Of a stretch of 64,000 bases of DNA, positions 46,813-57,324 are shown one piece after another (position 1 is the first letter of the stretch; the number at the start of each line of letters is the position of its first letter). This DNA is from Candidatus Bathyarchaeota archaeon (lineage in GTDB: Archaea; Thermoproteota; Bathyarchaeia; Bathyarchaeales; Bathycorpusculaceae). The DNA lies in contig JAOZHW010000007.1 of NCBI GenBank assembly GCA_026014685.1, forward strand, positions 372,001 to 436,000, in the 5' to 3' direction. Under the pieces are notes generated by a model. The model was not told where the DNA came from and made no database searches. It saw only the letters and a list, made by a program, of their open reading frames with translations. A program made the translations under genes and the position numbers.

Positions 46813-48276
46813 TTAGTCTCTAGGATATACCTGATTTTTATCCGAGTTTGCCCAGAAAAGATAGACCTTTGTTTGAGAAAGCATACCTACCAGCTTTATC
46901 AGTTTGACCAATTCTGGCAATTCAGCTTTATACATACAGGTAATATAATCGGCGACCTTTCCAAAGGGCTGATTGCGGCTAGCTGCAAATTCCCTCCTAA
47001 AGCGTGTATGCTTGTTTTTAATGAAAGCTTCTTTGAGTTTATTAATCTCCTCTGGTTGCAAGCTTTCAAGCTTAGCCTGGACATATCGTTCACTTGCCAA
47101 GAGTTGCGCCTCAAACCCTAACTCCAAGAGCGCTTTAAAAACGCTGGATATGCTTTTTACTGTTTGTTGTTGGGCTATTTTTTGCATGCCAGCCTTTTCA
47201 GCGAATGGGCTATACTTTGCCATAACCGCTATCAGTTCCACATATTGGGTTCCGACCAGCGGCATTGTCTCACGGATGAGTTTGGCTCCTATGCCTATAG
47301 TGCGGTATTTTGGGTGGATAACTACTCGGTTGATTATGCTAAGTTGCTTATTCAACTCCTGAATAGTCATTTTCGGTAGTACCATTCGCCTTCCATAACA
47401 GGCGGGAGGTGGGTAACTATACACTATAACCCCGCAGAGCTCCTCTCCCCGTACCATGCGGAAGATTTTTCTTGGAACCGCAACCTTGTGCCCGCGATAA
47501 TGGAAGCTGCTGAGTTTCTGCCAGTCTGCCCTTGTACCCTCTTCGACGCGCATTTCACGGGTTAAGCTGCATTCCGGGGCTGGTGTGGTTGGGTAATAGT
47601 CGATTTTGATTTCTTCCCCAAACCGCTTGCGCACTAAAACGCTGGGTTTGAGGTCCTCGGCTAGGTCGCTGTGGGTTGTTGCCGCGATGACCGCTTTGCC
47701 TTGTTGCCTTGCGATTTTTTGCAGGTTGTAGGCGATGATTTTGGCGGTGTCCCGATCCAGGCAGGCGGCGAATTCATCCATTAGCCACCATTGTTTGCCG
47801 CTTTCGATTAGCTTGGCGATTCTGTAACGGTATCGTTGGCCGTCGCTGAGTTGGCTGTAGGTGCGTAGGAATAGGAAGGCGTCGTTTAAGCCGACTTTGC
47901 TCAGCAACTCCAAGCCTTCTTCGACGGTGGCGCCGACGGTCTCAATTAGGGGCTTGTCTGGGTCAACTGCAACCTCGGATAGGTCTATTGCCTCTTCACC
48001 TAAGTCTGCCCTGATTGCCCGCAGCAGGACGCTTTTGCCGCTGCCGCTGTCGCCGGTGATGTAGACAATGTCTTTGGGGCCAATCTTAAGTTCAGCATCC
48101 AACACCTTGAACTTTTGGGCGTCGTCGATGCCTAGTCCGAAGGCTTCAGCCACAACCAGGCTTCTTGGAGTCGGCTTAGTGTGGGTTTCATAGCTGATGT
48201 TGAAGGTGAATTTGCCTTCCGTGCGGTCGTAGATTCGTCGGAACTGCCTTATCCGAAAGTCATTTCGTCGCCTCAT
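46813..48276 (-). CDS. ABC-type ATPase fused to a GNAT acetyltransferase
   Basis: 487 residues. ABC ATPase part (about 30-235): Walker A YITGDSGSGKSVLLRAI, signature LSDGQRYRYRIAKLI, Walker B WWLMDEFAACLDRDTAKI and H-loop IAATTHSDLAED. GNAT part (about 245-420): INRVVIHPKYRTIGIGAKLI has the acetyl-CoA loop region, then VELIAVMAKYSPFAEKAGM. There are no membrane segments, so it is not a transporter. Relatives of this fusion occur next to viral terminase genes; the role is unknown. Its start lies 7 bases from the terminase stop. Confidence 0.85.
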   Translation of the reverse strand: MRRRNDFRIRQFRRIYDRTEGKFTFNISYETHTKPTPRSLVVAEAFGLGIDDAQKFKVLDAELKIGPKDIVYITGDSGSGKSVLLRAIRADLGEEAIDLSEVAVDPDKPLIETVGATVEEGLELLSKVGLNDAFLFLRTYSQLSDGQRYRYRIAKLIESGKQWWLMDEFAACLDRDTAKIIAYNLQKIARQQGKAVIAATTHSDLAEDLKPSVLVRKRFGEEIKIDYYPTTPAPECSLTREMRVEEGTRADWQKLSSFHYRGHKVAVPRKIFRMVRGEELCGVIVYSYPPPACYGRRMVLPKMTIQELNKQLSIINRVVIHPKYRTIGIGAKLIRETMPLVGTQYVELIAVMAKYSPFAEKAGMQKIAQQQTVKSISSVFKALLELGFEAQLLASERYVQAKLESLQPEEINKLKEAFIKNKHTRFRREFAASRNQPFGKVADYITCMYKAELPELVKLIKLVGMLSQTKVYLFWANSDKNQVYPRD

Positions 48277-50787: not shown

Positions 50788-52398
50788 TTAACGTCTTGCC
50801 TTGTAGTTGCTCAACGCGTCTGTGCGGGTTCGCAGAGCGTATATCCAGTCGGCCATCAACTGCTTCTGATAACCAAGATTCAAAGTAACATCCAGTGTGT
50901 TGTTTTCTGCCAACAAGTGATAGTCCACGCTTTTGACAAGAAAATTAACGGAGGAGATGTTTTCGTTTGGCAGAGTAACCGAAATCATATCGCCGGGCAA
51001 GATAGGCGAAGTACCATAATCGATTAAGGTGCTTTTTACCACCAGCGAAGTTTTAGCCTGTTTCTTGTAGGCCAGTATTGATTTGGCTCTTAGCATGCAT
51101 TCGTTGTCGCTGCAGAGGTCTTCGACGATGTCGACGTATTGGCGTTCGCCGTAGACGGCTATGCTTGCGGCGTCGGTTTGCATGTTGCTGTATCTTGCGC
51201 CGGTGAAGTAGAGTTGGCCATGCCACACTTGACCGCTAACGCCCGGAGTAACCAGATACGCCGTTACGGTTACGGTGCGGATGTTTTCCCAGTCAAAATC
51301 AGCGGGAGCCGCCCACTCCGAAGCATGATTCAAGCCCACGTCTAACTGATAGGTTGACCAGTCATTGCTTGCCGAAACACTGTTGACGTTTGAGAGGTTT
51401 CGCCCGCAAACCCGAGAAGAAGAATCATGCAAAATAACCAAAAAACCGTCGGATTTCACCTGGTCGTCTCGCAGCAGAGCCAGGAACAGTTTAGGGTACA
51501 GGTTGCCGTTCACGGTTACGTTGAAGTAATAGACGGATACCGCGTTGTAAGCGGTGCCCGTCGTGTTTTTGACGCTTGAAGAGGCAGAACCATACTGCCG
51601 TGTGGCGTCGAGGGAGAGATTGCCGCCGTAGCCTGTCCAGTAACCGCCTGCCGGAGTGAGGCTTTCGACTGTTTCATCCACGTCTATGGGTATACTTTTA
51701 GTGGCAGCCCCATAAATCGTCACCTTATTTCTGACCGACAGAATATCCGACTCCGTTTCCGCCTCCTCAATCAGCTCGTTGAGGTTGACGGGGCAGGTTT
51801 TAGCGCCTCTGTGGAAAAACTCGAAGCGGCCATCCAGAGCCACCCTGAAATCGTAGCCTATGGCGCCTGCTTTATCGCTGTCTTTGGCGATTTGTTTTAG
51901 GATTTCCCACGCCTGCTTATTCTCAAAATCCAAACGCGTAAACGTAGTATCCGTGTCCTCAACCAGTTCCGCTGTGCCCCGTACATGAGGAAGCCCCGAA
52001 TGGTAATCCAAAAGGTGCTTAACGATTTCCTCGCCCTTCATCAGCGCGTAGCTTTCGGTGACGTATTCGCGGAATAAGCGTTCGCCCCAGTCACGCCCCG
52101 AAACAGTAACATAATGCTCGGTGGGGGTTGATTGGAACTTCATGTTCTCGTTTCGCGTCGTTATAAGTTGGGGACAATTGGCGCCTCTGCCGAGCATGAT
52201 GTAGCCGTCCTCGCCCAACGCGATTGGGGAACCTGTGGTGCTGTATTTGCCGTTCCAGTTCTGCAGGCGATAGGCAAAGCTGCTGACTTCCTCGGTTCCG
52301 CCCAAATGCACAGTCAACTCCAAAATGTCACTCTGCTCTATCGAGCCGCCTGTTACTCCCGAGTAGAGCGCAACTGATGGAGATGCGGGTTGGCTCAT
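50788..52398 (-). CDS. Tail hub / baseplate protein with inserted beta-sandwich
   Basis: 536 residues. The N-terminal part (1-110) and the region DYHSGLPHVRGTAELVEDTD to SILSVRN-like IEEAETESDILSVRNKVTIY match the gp27/gpD-type tail hub. At about 255-415 a separate beta-sandwich is inserted (YGSASSSVKNTTGTAYNAVS, NDWSTYQLDVGLNHASEWA), resembling carbohydrate-binding modules. The hub then resumes (VYGERQYVDIVEDLCSDNEC, LPGDMISVTLPNENISSVNF). It would close the tail tip and touch the host surface. Confidence 0.78.
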   Translation of the reverse strand: MSQPASPSVALYSGVTGGSIEQSDILELTVHLGGTEEVSSFAYRLQNWNGKYSTTGSPIALGEDGYIMLGRGANCPQLITTRNENMKFQSTPTEHYVTVSGRDWGERLFREYVTESYALMKGEEIVKHLLDYHSGLPHVRGTAELVEDTDTTFTRLDFENKQAWEILKQIAKDSDKAGAIGYDFRVALDGRFEFFHRGAKTCPVNLNELIEEAETESDILSVRNKVTIYGAATKSIPIDVDETVESLTPAGGYWTGYGGNLSLDATRQYGSASSSVKNTTGTAYNAVSVYYFNVTVNGNLYPKLFLALLRDDQVKSDGFLVILHDSSSRVCGRNLSNVNSVSASNDWSTYQLDVGLNHASEWAAPADFDWENIRTVTVTAYLVTPGVSGQVWHGQLYFTGARYSNMQTDAASIAVYGERQYVDIVEDLCSDNECMLRAKSILAYKKQAKTSLVVKSTLIDYGTSPILPGDMISVTLPNENISSVNFLVKSVDYHLLAENNTLDVTLNLGYQKQLMADWIYALRTRTDALSNYKARR

Positions 52399-52946
52399 GT
52401 GTCCTCGACTCCTTGACGATAAATCGCCATGTCGCCCGAGCGCACGATGCCCCGTGTAACTGTGGCGTTGGTTTGGGCGGCTGATGCGTTAAAGTTCTGC
52501 ATGCTGATCGTGGCGGTGTTCATGCTGTTGGCGAAACTGTACATTGCAACGGCGGCAGCTGCAATAACCGCTAACCCCACGCCCGTGAGGGCTAGGAAGG
52601 TGCCGTAGCTGATGTTGAGCGCGTTCTGTGCGGCTGTGGCAACCCAGCAGGCGGCGGAATACACTTTTTGGGCAACTGCGACGCCTACGCTGGTGGTCAT
52701 AAATGTGCCCATGACTGAAACAACCATCATCGCCGAATTGAACACCTTAGTCTGCGAGTCGTTTAGGAGTCCGAATTGGTTGGCGATGTAGCCGATTGCC
52801 ATACCCGAAGCGCCGATACCTGCGATCGCGGCGCCTAAACTTTTAACTCGGGCACTTAGGGCTTCGGCGTCGGTTTTGATTCGGCTAAACTCGTTACTGG
52901 CGCGGTTAACCGCCCGTATGGTTACCGCGATTTCGCGAAAACTCAA
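52395..52946 (-). CDS. Very short tail tape-measure-like protein
   Basis: 183 residues. Starts IAVTIRAVNRASNEFSRIKT then LSARVKSLGAAIAGIGASGM, the usual N-terminus of tape-measure proteins. Three hydrophobic segments follow (about 65-165). Tape-measure length sets tail length, so 183 residues would give an unusually short tail, or the protein is only the membrane-active part. It follows the gp10-like gene and precedes the hub, overlapping both by 4 bases. Confidence 0.65.
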   Translation of the reverse strand: MSFREIAVTIRAVNRASNEFSRIKTDAEALSARVKSLGAAIAGIGASGMAIGYIANQFGLLNDSQTKVFNSAMMVVSVMGTFMTTSVGVAVAQKVYSAACWVATAAQNALNISYGTFLALTGVGLAVIAAAAVAMYSFANSMNTATISMQNFNASAAQTNATVTRGIVRSGDMAIYRQGVEDT

Positions 52947-53257
52947 TGCTCCGCCTCCACTTTTGCCTGCTCGATGGCTGCTGTTATTGTGGCTTCAAGT
53001 TGGGGCAGGAACTGTTCAACTGCAGGGTAAAGGTAGGGATGAGCTTGCATGTATTTGGTACCCAACTCCACAAACAATGCGTATGTGGCTTCCGCGCCGA
53101 TTTCGGCTGTCCATTCTCGGATTTTCGTGTAGATGGTGCTTTTGAGGTAGCCGGTGCGGACGGGAACTTGACGTGCTACTTCGGCTTTGACGTCGGCAGC
53201 CCAGCTAGCCAGTTGACTATGCACGTGACGCTGCATGCCCGAATCGAACCGCTGCAT
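52943..53257 (-). CDS. HK97 gp10-like head-tail/tail protein
   Basis: 104 residues from ATG 53257. VKAEVARQVPVRTGYLKSTI, then YALFVELGTKYMQAHPYLYP, is the gp10-family signature. Upstream the frame stays open to 53318 and encodes TVTLEVDSAEEFKAAM, which looks like genuine family sequence, but it has no ATG, GTG or TTG, so the real start may be non-standard. Confidence 0.8.
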   Translation of the reverse strand: MQRFDSGMQRHVHSQLASWAADVKAEVARQVPVRTGYLKSTIYTKIREWTAEIGAEATYALFVELGTKYMQAHPYLYPAVEQFLPQLEATITAAIEQAKVEAEH

Positions 53258-53301: not shown

Positions 53302-53837
53302 TTAGTGCCGTTTTGCTTCACGCTCCGCTTTCCTTTTTTCTTCTTCAGCGATTTCGTCTAGTACGTTCAAGATGTGGCAGAACTCCTGCACTGTTCTAGC
53401 CGGCTGTTCGGCGAGTTGGGTTGGGGTCCATCCGAAGGTTTGGCATAACCTGAACTCGGCAAGGGCGCCGTGCGGTTTTCCCCGTCTGACTGCTCCGGTA
53501 AAAAACGTAAATCCTCCTGCGATACACTGTTCAGCCTGTTGACGATTTTAGAGAATAGTTCGCCCAGCTCGATTGGGACGCCTTCTTCTTCGCCCAAAAG
53601 CTTCTCAAGCGTTATGGGGCGGGTTTGGGGTTGACCATGCATGCTAGCCATTATGGTTTCGGCTTGTATCGCTATGAAGTCGCTGCTCTCCACGTCGCCG
53701 CTTAATCGGTTGTATCTGGTGTGCTTCTGAATGATGCGGTTACGTTTAGCCCATGTTATCTCCGCAAAGCTATAGGTGCCTCTGTATTCCTCGCCGAATT
53801 TGCCGTCAAGCTCTATTTTTTCTGTGCGCATTTTCAA
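53302..53837 (-). CDS. Tail assembly chaperone, -1 frameshift product (GT-like)
   Basis: 178 residues if ribosomes slip back one base at 53499-53505. The first 113 residues are those of the short product. After the slip the -1 frame reads GALAEFRLCQTFGWTPTQLA, then VQEFCHILNVLDEIAEEEKR to a TAA at 53302-53304. That extension is coding-like and typical of phage tail-chaperone T domains. The site is T TTT TTA in the zero frame, with AGGAGGA (53512-53518) seven bases before it. No start codon explains the -1 frame otherwise. The long and short forms together would coat the tape measure during tail assembly. Confidence 0.82.
53367..53837 (-). CDS. Tail assembly chaperone, short product (G-like)
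   Basis: 156 residues. FGEEYRGTYSFAEITWAKRN and IAIQAETIMASMHGQPQTRP, then GELFSKIVNRLNSVSQEDLR, fit a tail chaperone lying after the tail tube gene. The last 43 residues after the frameshift site (PSSGYAKPSDGPQPNSPNS) are low-complexity, as expected of an unselected zero-frame tail. Confidence 0.78.
   Translation of the reverse strand: MKMRTEKIELDGKFGEEYRGTYSFAEITWAKRNRIIQKHTRYNRLSGDVESSDFIAIQAETIMASMHGQPQTRPITLEKLLGEEEGVPIELGELFSKIVNRLNSVSQEDLRFLPEQSDGENRTAPLPSSGYAKPSDGPQPNSPNSRLEQCRSSATS
53499..53518 (-). promoter_or_regulatory. Programmed -1 frameshift signal
   Basis: Minus strand: AGGAGGA at 53518-53512, spacer TTTACG, then TTTTTTA at 53505-53499. In the zero frame the codons are CGT TTT TTA, so the heptamer is X XXY YYZ exactly, the same heptamer as in HIV-1 gag-pol. 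A Shine-Dalgarno-like stimulator upstream of the slip site is also used by bacterial dnaX. Confidence 0.85.
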
Positions 53838-54012
53838 TCATCTCCATAGTTGCAACCCTGTTTCTGATGGCTGTGTCGATGTCTTCAAGCACAATGTCCT
53901 GCATCCATTCGGGAAGCCTCAGAATCCGAACGCCGATTGCCTCCCACATTTTGAGCCAATCACTGCGCAAGGCAGCTTCCCTAACGAAATCTTCAACTTT
54001 AGTTTCTTCCAT
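53806..54012 (-). CDS. Small viral tail-region protein
   Basis: 68 residues: VEDFVREAALRSDWLKMWEA, then LPEWMQDIVLEDIDTAIRNR. Helical and acidic. It lies between the tail tube and the chaperone and overlaps the latter by 32 bases. Probably a tail assembly accessory; family not recognised. Confidence 0.65.
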   Translation of the reverse strand: MEETKVEDFVREAALRSDWLKMWEAIGVRILRLPEWMQDIVLEDIDTAIRNRVATMEMIENAHRKNRA

Positions 54013-54030: not shown

Positions 54031-54894
54031 TTATGAAATGTTCAATGGTCCTCTGGCTGTGAAGGACACTTTGGCGTAGATTAGGTCTTCAGCTTTGCCG
54101 CCTAAACTGAAATCGTCCCACTTCGTGTGCTCAACGGTCACTTTGTTAGCTCCCCCAAGCCCAAATTCAAGGCTGGACTGCTCCGTGTCGGCTAAGACTT
54201 CGTCGGCTTCCTGTTTGCTCTCAAATTCAAACGTGAGTTCACCCGTCAGCAGCCGTTTACCCCAAGTGATGTACTTCGCCAAATGCCCATTAGTGGACCT
54301 TATGACTGGGACAGCTTTGCAAGAGTTGTCAATTTGCAGTTTCCAAGAAGTCACCCGCTCGCAGGTTGCACCGCCGATTTTAACGTAGCTCTCGCTGGCC
54401 GAAACTGCGCCCGCGTACTCGGTGTAGGATGCACCCGAAATTTTGGTCGTGGTGACTTCGACGTCTTGGGCTGGAAACTCGGCTTCGCACTCTAAGATGC
54501 CGTCGATGTCGCATGTTAGGGTGGCTTTGTCAAATCTTGCGCCCTTGAAGAGCAGGCTGACTATGTCGGTTGCGGAAACAAAGATGTCCTTGTAGTAGAG
54601 CACCTGCAAGGCGAGGCTGGCGTTGAGTTCCTGCTTGACGTACTGGAGCAGGTTGATTGGGGCATCGGACGGGATGGGATACTTGATTTTTAGAAGCGGC
54701 TGCCGTAATCCGCGTTTTAGGGCGGCAAGGTCGATTGAGCCTGTGCCTGCAACGCGGATGTTGTTTGGGTTAATGTCGGGGTCTATGTTGCTACAAGAAT
54801 GCCCAAGCATCGCTGGGCTGGTTGGCACTACGCCGAAAGTCGTTTCGGTGACGTAGTAGAACTTTTCTTGGTCGCTGTGATAGGTGTCAACCAT
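54031..54894 (-). CDS. Major tail tube protein
   Basis: 287 residues. KFYYVTETTFGVVPTSPAML is the usual tail-tube start (ETxxGxxPxxP). IDGILECEAEFPAQDVEVTT and VTSWKLQIDNSCKAVPVIRS with GKRLLTGELTFEFES follow. Tail tube proteins of long-tailed viruses stack into the central tube. Position after the terminator-like protein and before the chaperone is standard. Confidence 0.88.
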   Translation of the reverse strand: MVDTYHSDQEKFYYVTETTFGVVPTSPAMLGHSCSNIDPDINPNNIRVAGTGSIDLAALKRGLRQPLLKIKYPIPSDAPINLLQYVKQELNASLALQVLYYKDIFVSATDIVSLLFKGARFDKATLTCDIDGILECEAEFPAQDVEVTTTKISGASYTEYAGAVSASESYVKIGGATCERVTSWKLQIDNSCKAVPVIRSTNGHLAKYITWGKRLLTGELTFEFESKQEADEVLADTEQSSLEFGLGGANKVTVEHTKWDDFSLGGKAEDLIYAKVSFTARGPLNIS

Positions 54895-54913: not shown

Positions 54914-55936
54914 CTATGAAATGGCGATTGACTCGAAGAGCCATGCCACCATTGTGATTTCTTCCTTGTACAGGAAGGGTTTAACGTCGGTTACGTCGAC
55001 GTCTCGGTAACTGTGCACATCGCAAAACGTCACGCCTCGCACGTCAACGGTTGCCTGCACAAAATCGCAGTGCAGAACGGCAGGAGAAACCCCGTCTGAC
55101 GGGTTGGTTGTTCGTGCCATGAGGTAGAGGTAGCCGTCGTCGTTGACGTAATTCGTGAGGTTCGAGGTTAGAGTGATTGTTACGGTTTGGTCTGTTCCTG
55201 CAGTGCCAAGTTGGGCGTCTCCCCAAGAACCCGCTGCGTGATTCCACACTTTCAGAATCGCCCCGTAGCCAGCAGGCGACACCCCAAAGCCTTCGAAAGC
55301 CAAGACAAGACGCTTTAAACACTGCTTTCTAGGCTCATTACGGGTTTCTCCAGCTTTGGCGCCGATTTTGAAGCGGAAAAGCATAAACGCAAACTCGCCA
55401 CTACCAGTTGCGCTTTTGGTGTGTCTTTGGTCGTCGCTTCCCCAAAGATTCGCATACTCAGAATTGGACAGCTCCGTCCAAACAGTGCTAGACGGCTCAG
55501 GTTCGGTTTGGGTTGCTGCATCATAGGCTTTGTGAGTTGTAGATGTTGAGTCAATCGGGTAAAAGTTGTAGGTTGTCCTGTAGGGTAGGTTGCGGTTTTC
55601 AGGAATAATTAGTAATAGCTGCTCAAGGACTTTGTCACGCATTACTCTGCCCACATCTGCGTTTGGAGCGGGCTTGTCAACTGTGGTTATGGTTGCTCTC
55701 AGGGAGTAGATTCGGCGTCTTAGTTTGCCGTCTAAGGTGTGTTTCTGTGATTGACTGGGCTCCGAGGTTTTGGATACTGTAATTTGGGCGTCGATGTCTT
55801 TTAGCAGTTCCCTGTCGTAGTTGGCTTGAGTGCAGAGGACTCGGGCTAAGCCGCCGTCGTCTTTGACAACTCTTAAGCGGGACTCGATTAGACGCAGGAT
55901 GGTAACGACTGGGTTCTCAAACTCGGCAACACTCAA
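54914..55936 (-). CDS. Tail terminator/connector-like protein with beta-sandwich insert
   Basis: 340 residues. The first 110 and last 60 residues form one unit (VVTILRLIESRLRVVKDDGG, then YRDVDVTDVKPFLYKEEITM), like gpU-type tail completion proteins. Between them (about 150-285) is a jelly-roll-like domain (YANLWGSDDQRHTKSATGSG, FAFMLFRFKIGAKAGETRNE). The outer unit caps the tail tube; the insert may sit on the virion surface. Confidence 0.65.
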   Translation of the reverse strand: MSVAEFENPVVTILRLIESRLRVVKDDGGLARVLCTQANYDRELLKDIDAQITVSKTSEPSQSQKHTLDGKLRRRIYSLRATITTVDKPAPNADVGRVMRDKVLEQLLLIIPENRNLPYRTTYNFYPIDSTSTTHKAYDAATQTEPEPSSTVWTELSNSEYANLWGSDDQRHTKSATGSGEFAFMLFRFKIGAKAGETRNEPRKQCLKRLVLAFEGFGVSPAGYGAILKVWNHAAGSWGDAQLGTAGTDQTVTITLTSNLTNYVNDDGYLYLMARTTNPSDGVSPAVLHCDFVQATVDVRGVTFCDVHSYRDVDVTDVKPFLYKEEITMVAWLFESIAIS

Positions 55937-57324
55937 GTTGCAATCAGCCTCCTTGCGATGCTTTTGAAGTAGAACCGCTGATTCCCAAACGTGAACAGCG
56001 TCACCGTTTGAACCTCGTAATCTTCGCCCTGCCGCCTGATTTTGTCGTGAACTCGAACGGGAAGAAAAGTGTAGAATGCCAAGTAGTCACTGAGGTAGTA
56101 GCCTGCCTCAATCATAACCTGCTCAGCCTTAAGCGGAGAAACAACCGCCAGCAAATCCAGCGGCTCACCATACGCCACAGTTGCAGCCGCTTCGCGGACA
56201 GGGTAAAGCGTGACGGTTTCGCCTTTGCTTCTCAGAATCTTGGTGAATTGGGTTGTTGGTTCCTCGTAGTTTAGGAACAGCTGGGCTAGCCAGCAAACCG
56301 TCGCCATAGCCCACTTATTCTCAACCGGACTGTAATCGTGGTGTTTGGCGCCCCAGAACATGAACTCCGATGAGTGTTTGCCGATGACTTCTACGCTGAG
56401 CTTGAGGCTGGGTTGGTCGTGGTTTTTTCGGATGCGCCAGAGGATGCCGCTTGTGACGGCGTCGTAGTAGTCGCATGCTACAGTTCGGTTGACGACATCT
56501 ATGTAGCCCGCCCAGCACACCGCAGGCTCATAGGCTGGGTAAGTGGCGCTAGCGCGAATGCTATTTAGAAAGCTGTAAACCCGCTGACAAGTTAAGCTCC
56601 AACCTTCCACCGCGTACAAACCCACCAAGGCGTAGGCGAAGGGGTCATCGTAAACCTCATTCTCGCTTAAGCCAACGCGGTGCCACTTGCCATCGGCAGG
56701 GTCAAAATTAAGCCACAACTTCTCTAAACCATCCCTGAGAAAACCAACAGCCTTATCCATGATGCTTTGGTAGAGGGCTGCGTTGGCTGTGTCATACTTC
56801 TCCGCTAAGAGCTTGAGACCTGCTAGCCCGTAGAGGCATTCGATGTCCATTTGCAGAAGCCACGCATCGCCGAGTGTGACGGCTCTGGCGAAGCCGCCGT
56901 AGGCTTGCTGGTCCTGCATGGTTTTGAGGAAAGTTCCAGCCGCCAGCTTAGCAGCATCCAAATAGCGGGTGTCGCTTGTGAGTTCATAGGCTCCAAGAAG
57001 GGAAGGGATGGCTCTGCAGGCGTCGACGCTGTAGTAGTAGGTGCTGGTTTCTGCGCTTTTGAATCCGCCATACGCTTTTCGTGCTGGGTCGAGGCACTGC
57101 TGGGTCAGAATCCAATCCGCAAGGCTGACGATTTTAGTATAGATTTCCGTCTTTCTGCTTTCAAATTGTTTAGCAGAGTACGCTTCACAGAGAAAGTCAA
57201 TAGCAAAGCTAGCAGCCAAAACGCCTTTGCCAAACGTTGGGTCTGGTGTGTTTGGCGGAATCACGTAGACGTAGGGCGCGTAGTCCATGATGAATTGGTA
57301 GTAGGTTTCTGGCACGGTTCCCAC
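55933..57324 (-). CDS. Alpha/alpha-toroid domain fused to a head-tail stopper
   Basis: 463 residues. Residues 1-360 are helical repeats typical of (alpha/alpha)6 sugar-active or epimerase-like folds: VSLADWILTQQCLDPARKAY, YAYGGF-type repeats (KAYGGFKSAETSTYYY, QQAYGGFARAVTLGDAWLLQ) and DDPFAYALVGLYAVEGWSLT. The last 90 residues (VRVHDKIRRQGEDYEVQTVT, LFTFGNQRFYFKSIARRL) match short head-tail stopper proteins. Gene order (adaptor, this, terminator) supports the stopper call. Whether the toroid is active is unknown. Confidence 0.7.
   Translation of the reverse strand: MGTVPETYYQFIMDYAPYVYVIPPNTPDPTFGKGVLAASFAIDFLCEAYSAKQFESRKTEIYTKIVSLADWILTQQCLDPARKAYGGFKSAETSTYYYSVDACRAIPSLLGAYELTSDTRYLDAAKLAAGTFLKTMQDQQAYGGFARAVTLGDAWLLQMDIECLYGLAGLKLLAEKYDTANAALYQSIMDKAVGFLRDGLEKLWLNFDPADGKWHRVGLSENEVYDDPFAYALVGLYAVEGWSLTCQRVYSFLNSIRASATYPAYEPAVCWAGYIDVVNRTVACDYYDAVTSGILWRIRKNHDQPSLKLSVEVIGKHSSEFMFWGAKHHDYSPVENKWAMATVCWLAQLFLNYEEPTTQFTKILRSKGETVTLYPVREAAATVAYGEPLDLLAVVSPLKAEQVMIEAGYYLSDYLAFYTFLPVRVHDKIRRQGEDYEVQTVTLFTFGNQRFYFKSIARRLIAT

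Follow-up and report, generated by a model that had tools for sequence, protein, structure and literature searches.

The 64,000-nt window analysed here (the whole stretch of DNA under study, which is part of a 2.3 Mb genome) contains, within a tailed (Caudoviricetes) provirus of a Bathyarchaeia archaeon, a gene for the G/GT tail assembly chaperone, and its two reading frames are predicted, with a probability of about 0.93 on comparative grounds, to be joined by a programmed -1 frameshift. In the proposed mechanism, most ribosomes would stay in the zero frame and produce G, composed of a core followed by a 43-residue tail, and a fraction would slip back one base, with tRNA-Phe and tRNA-Leu on the heptamer T TTT TTA, to produce GT, in which the same core is followed by a helical T domain of 65 residues. 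By analogy with phage lambda, the G core would coat the tape measure protein, T would recruit the tail tube subunits, and the slip rate would set the G:GT ratio. The heptamer lies in exact zero-frame phase, with the codons CGT TTT TTA across the slip site, and the -1 frame stays open for 65 codons; both had been claimed in the original prediction, whose coordinates were reproduced (Table 1).

Homologous loci were gathered with the G core, the T domain or the small neighboring open reading frame (ORF) as similarity queries, the heptamer never being a search criterion, and 164 distinct loci were obtained from Bathyarchaeia genomes and IMG/VR contigs. In 164/164 of them, T is offset by -1 relative to G and an X XXY YYZ heptamer occurs in phase, the heptamer being T6A in 148 loci, T6G in five, A6C in nine, and A6T and A7 in one each. 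The original prediction had named two kinds of relatives as speaking against it, those with both frames fused into one and those keeping the frame open after loss of the heptamer; neither a fused single-frame G-T gene nor an open frame without a heptamer was found among the 164 loci, in which the heptamer is either conserved or replaced by another canonical one. In the window, the heptamer alone is not beyond chance (33 TTTTTTA seen versus 28.5 expected, and 16 in-phase X XXY YYZ sites with Y = A or T in the viral ORFs), and it is significant because of this conservation, not because of its rarity. The six Ts are invariant in 93 dereplicated T6 loci, but these were chosen for having T6, and the independent point is therefore the presence of a canonical heptamer in every locus. 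The variation by codon position shows protein-level selection in the -1 frame after the slip. Before the slip, zero-frame position 3 varies most (1.57 bits, versus 0.81 and 0.55 at the other positions), and after it position 3 of the -1 codons does (1.14 bits, versus 0.71 and 0.40). The -1 frame protein has a mean pairwise identity of 0.68.

As read from the compared loci, the swap of one canonical heptamer for another is the strongest single point for frameshifting. The loci with A6 or A7 heptamers (A-type) have the slip site one codon upstream of the T6 position, and a single branch of the ingroup tree (98/91 support) separates them from the rest. In Bathyarchaeia families too distant for the G profile to detect their G, this junction carries A AAA AAA and G stops within 0-1 codons of it, and in the Bacillus phages Riggi and Jayan, G ends with AAA AAG CAA TAA and T is in the -1 frame (A AAA AAG heptamer). 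When the tree is rooted with the distant Bathyarchaeia families and the Bacillus phages, T6 is a clade (98/93) and the A-type is older, although the very long outgroup branches call for caution.

The chaperone-like nature claimed for the -1 extension agrees with its PHROG 9001 match ("tail assembly chaperone", E = 4.3e-11), which spans residues 119-173 of the G-T fusion. The alignment with phage proteins that had been proposed as a check identified a homologous T domain in the Andromedavirus Bacillus phages Riggi, Finn and Gemini and in Jayan, with 45-50% identity over ~40 residues. Likewise, the AlphaFold2 (AF2) model of T (predicted local distance difference test score, pLDDT, of 78) matches a 74-residue protein of Bacillus phage Finn (template modelling score, TM, 0.78; 1.3 Å). 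The AF2 model of the G core (pLDDT 89) matches, in BFVD, tail assembly chaperones of a siphovirus, Bacillus phage Gemini, HCTV-1 and HHTV-2 (E from 5e-4 to 3e-3); the G fold also weakly resembles Mu FS-gp41, and the PDB fold search with the G core gave a weak yqbN match only. The 197-residue tail assembly chaperone of Bacillus phage 019DV002 is present in the BFVD match lists of both the G and T models. No useful match was obtained in the Pfam search with the fused G-T protein, and tblastn of the G core against phage records gave no match.

The zero frame remains open for 28-46 codons past the slip in the T6 loci, whereas 10 of the 11 A-type loci stop after 0-4 codons. The tail of G encoded there is Ser/Gln/Pro-rich and low in complexity, as the original prediction had described, but it is not junk and appears, from the codons used, to be under selection. 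When the synonymous codons of T were permuted within each sequence, with the -1 protein held fixed, 31.2 ± 4.1 zero-frame stops were expected in the overlap and 3 were seen; third-frame stops were more frequent than expected (141 versus 97), and control stretches of G showed no stop avoidance. Leu, Ile and Val codons before A or G end in TA or TG in 31/408 cases in the overlap versus 604/1262 in G. The avoidance was maintained among sequences with T-region identity below 80% and below 75% (35 and 21 sequences; 1/1000 permutations each), and was weaker below 70% (nine sequences; 29/1000). Synonymous variation, as a fraction of its maximum, is also reduced in the overlap (0.69, versus 0.85 before it and 0.83 beyond the zero-frame stop); however, the column-identity null ignores shared descent, and the dual-coding claim therefore rests on the stop avoidance, which suggests that both frames are translated over some 43 codons. 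The alternative, that the tail is an unselected run-on kept open as a by-product of T codon choice, would suit its low complexity and the A-type lineages, in which G mostly ends so soon after the slip that the tail is dispensable; it is nevertheless unlikely, given the scarcity of stops in this frame, their enrichment in the third and the persistence of the signal at lower redundancy. A somewhat favoured proposal is that the slip picks between two selected C-termini, and that a lineage with the older A-type site and a near stop underwent a single change to U UUU UUA and acquired an overprinted G tail of 40-46 codons, the same ~130 bases then coding for two proteins in different frames. A functional zero-frame tail would be a case of a protein tail born by overprinting at a frameshift site, and this selected overlap is the part most worth testing.

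Several observations weigh against programmed frameshifting. A conserved downstream RNA structure was not found (mean z of -0.2 to -0.5, near the control, with pseudoknots outside the model), and the alignment of the downstream region gave no alifold consensus fold. In addition, the Shine-Dalgarno-like element upstream is not universal among 154 loci, and any stimulators are therefore probably weak; both kinds of element are common at programmed -1 sites, the downstream one as a stem-loop or pseudoknot, but neither is required. The tape measure assignment relies mainly on gene position, and every slip site is a homopolymer run (X = Y), either T6 or A6/A7. Such runs would also allow transcriptional slippage, in which RNA polymerase would add or drop bases in the T6 or A6 run and part of the mRNA would encode GT in a single frame. 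This explanation is considered improbable, as the run is exactly six bases in 161/164 loci and seven in the other three, transcriptional slip sites usually being longer than that, and the T6 and A6 lineages share one codon phase, a constraint that only slipping by the ribosome would impose.

The AGGAGGA located six bases 5' of the heptamer had been taken for a ribosome-binding stimulator of the slip. The motif is present in the window but only partly conserved in the 154 loci (GGAGG in 36, GAGG in 99), and it was rejected as a required element because too few loci conserve it. The Glu codon at this site is GAG in 55/81 cases, versus 39% elsewhere in G; a weak selected signal is therefore plausible, and the upstream GAGG may stimulate slipping to some degree. 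The position of AGGAGGA just upstream of the T frame could also be read as the ribosome binding site of T as a separate gene with an internal start. However, the first ATG, GTG or TTG of the -1 frame in the window is 36 codons past the slip, none precedes the T core in 126/154 loci, and it is the heptamer that is conserved and not the motif; a T gene with its own start was rejected in the window and in most loci, and is very unlikely as a general explanation. A local indel or assembly error splitting a single-frame gene, for which the frame break itself is the sole point, is excluded by the same -1 arrangement in every one of the distinct loci, which come from many assemblies and include none that is fused.

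As in phage lambda and most long-tailed double-stranded DNA phages, G/GT follows the tail tube gene and precedes the tape measure position, and the predicted -1 slip is near the end of the core and adds a small T domain. The gene order (tail tube, G/GT, gp10-like gene and a short ORF at the tape measure position) is in keeping with a lambda-type G/GT system, the differences being the archaeal host, the T6A heptamer instead of the G GGA AAG of lambda, the zero-frame tail of 43-46 codons overlapping T, and the gp10-like gene between GT and the tape measure position. The Bacillus phages mentioned above share the T domain, and also the -1 frame T with A AAA AAG at the end of G (Riggi and Jayan) or the G fold (Gemini); they differ in their bacterial hosts, in that G ends one codon past the slip, and in that G and T are annotated as separate genes.

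The rarity that had been claimed for -1 frameshifting in archaeal viruses needs context, since cases in G-T genes are already reported, according to reviews, for the haloarchaeal viruses HVTV-1 and HCTV-1, -2 and -5, together with a +1 frameshift in HSTV-2. A 2021 review gives one reported archaeal programmed -1 frameshift (Saccharolobus alpha-fucosidase), with haloarchaeal viruses as apparent further users. Hardycor1 has G GGA AAT at the same place. These haloarchaeal viruses and the present provirus have in common a predicted -1 frameshift in the tail chaperone, and HCTV-1 a similar G fold, but T6A is not among their slip sites and their hosts are haloarchaea rather than Bathyarchaeia. The closest named relative is the Bathyarchaeia provirus BATPV1 (JAAKEZ010000002), with a G 84% identical, the same T6A site and a 43-codon tail; the paper describing it includes tail assembly chaperones among the genes of the proviruses and does not mention frameshifting. 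A literature search for Bathyarchaeia, virus and frameshift found no report in the searched library. Thus, the mechanism is known, and the host class and the T6A site appear to be unreported in the searchable literature. The locus adds another archaeal class with unusually complete comparative support, from the conservation in all loci and the heptamer swap, and offers a natural set of slip sites (U6A, U6G, A6C, A6T and A7) ready for testing the slipping of archaeal ribosomes.

The attribution to an archaeal virus was borne out, the host being archaeal and 24 of the 26 named genomes with a relative being Bathyarchaeota or Bathyarchaeum. Homologs of the G core were found in 23/91 genomes of the host family, as well as in hundreds of IMG/VR contigs. 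The host genome has three copies of the chaperone gene (contigs C7, C2 and C11, two of the copies beyond the window) and another family member (G003) has five; several related proviruses therefore seem to be present per genome. In an even sample of the phylum, the T domain had no match outside the order of the host, the more distant Bathyarchaeia T matches having come from a class-level search. One homolog (L220) is in a metagenome-assembled genome named Bipolaricaulis, a bacterium, for which binning contamination is likely.

Table 1. Features of the G/GT locus and neighboring tail genes. Coordinates are positions of the 64,000-nt window, and the G/GT feature is on the minus strand throughout.
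Feature	Position	Strand	Remarks
Tail tube protein gene	54031..54894	-	Pfam Phage_tube_2, E = 2.9e-17; upstream of G
Conserved 68-aa ORF overlapping the G start	53806..54012	-	No family match in PHROG or Pfam searches
G ORF, zero frame, 154 codons (core + 43-residue tail)	53831-53367	-	Start ATG 53831 or in-frame TTG 53837; stop 53369-53367
G core, 111 codons, common to both products	53499..53831	-	Mean column identity 75%; predicted fold
AGGAGGA, Shine-Dalgarno-like, possible stimulator	53518-53512	-	Partly conserved
Slip heptamer T TTT TTA, zero-frame phase	53505-53499	-	Kept or swapped for an equivalent heptamer in 164/164 loci
T domain, -1 frame, 65 codons + stop	53499-53302	-	Stop 53304-53302; PHROG 9001; codon-position signature
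Zero-frame G tail, 43 codons + stop, overlapping T (putative dual-coding stretch)	53498-53367	-	Zero-frame stop avoidance; reduced synonymous variation
HK97-gp10-like / tail completion protein gene	52943..53257	-	PHROG 5, E = 6.4e-15
Short ORF, 183 aa, at the tape measure position	52395..52946	-	By position; weak PHROG tape measure match

The capsid, cement protein and terminase genes are located further out from G/GT. The 68-aa ORF has a second copy in the host genome, which is 79% identical. Nearly all of the listed relatives have an ORF of 180-213 aa at the tape measure position; should the 183-aa ORF indeed encode the tape measure, the usual scaling of 1.5 Å per residue would give a very short tail of roughly 27-32 nm. 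Among the head-tail connector genes, a 463-aa protein (55933-57324, minus strand) has a weak N-terminal C5-epimerase/GH88-like match, a domain that is unusual there. Additionally, an ABC/AAA-type ATPase joined to an acetyltransferase-like domain (46813-48276, minus strand) is encoded downstream of the terminase gene.
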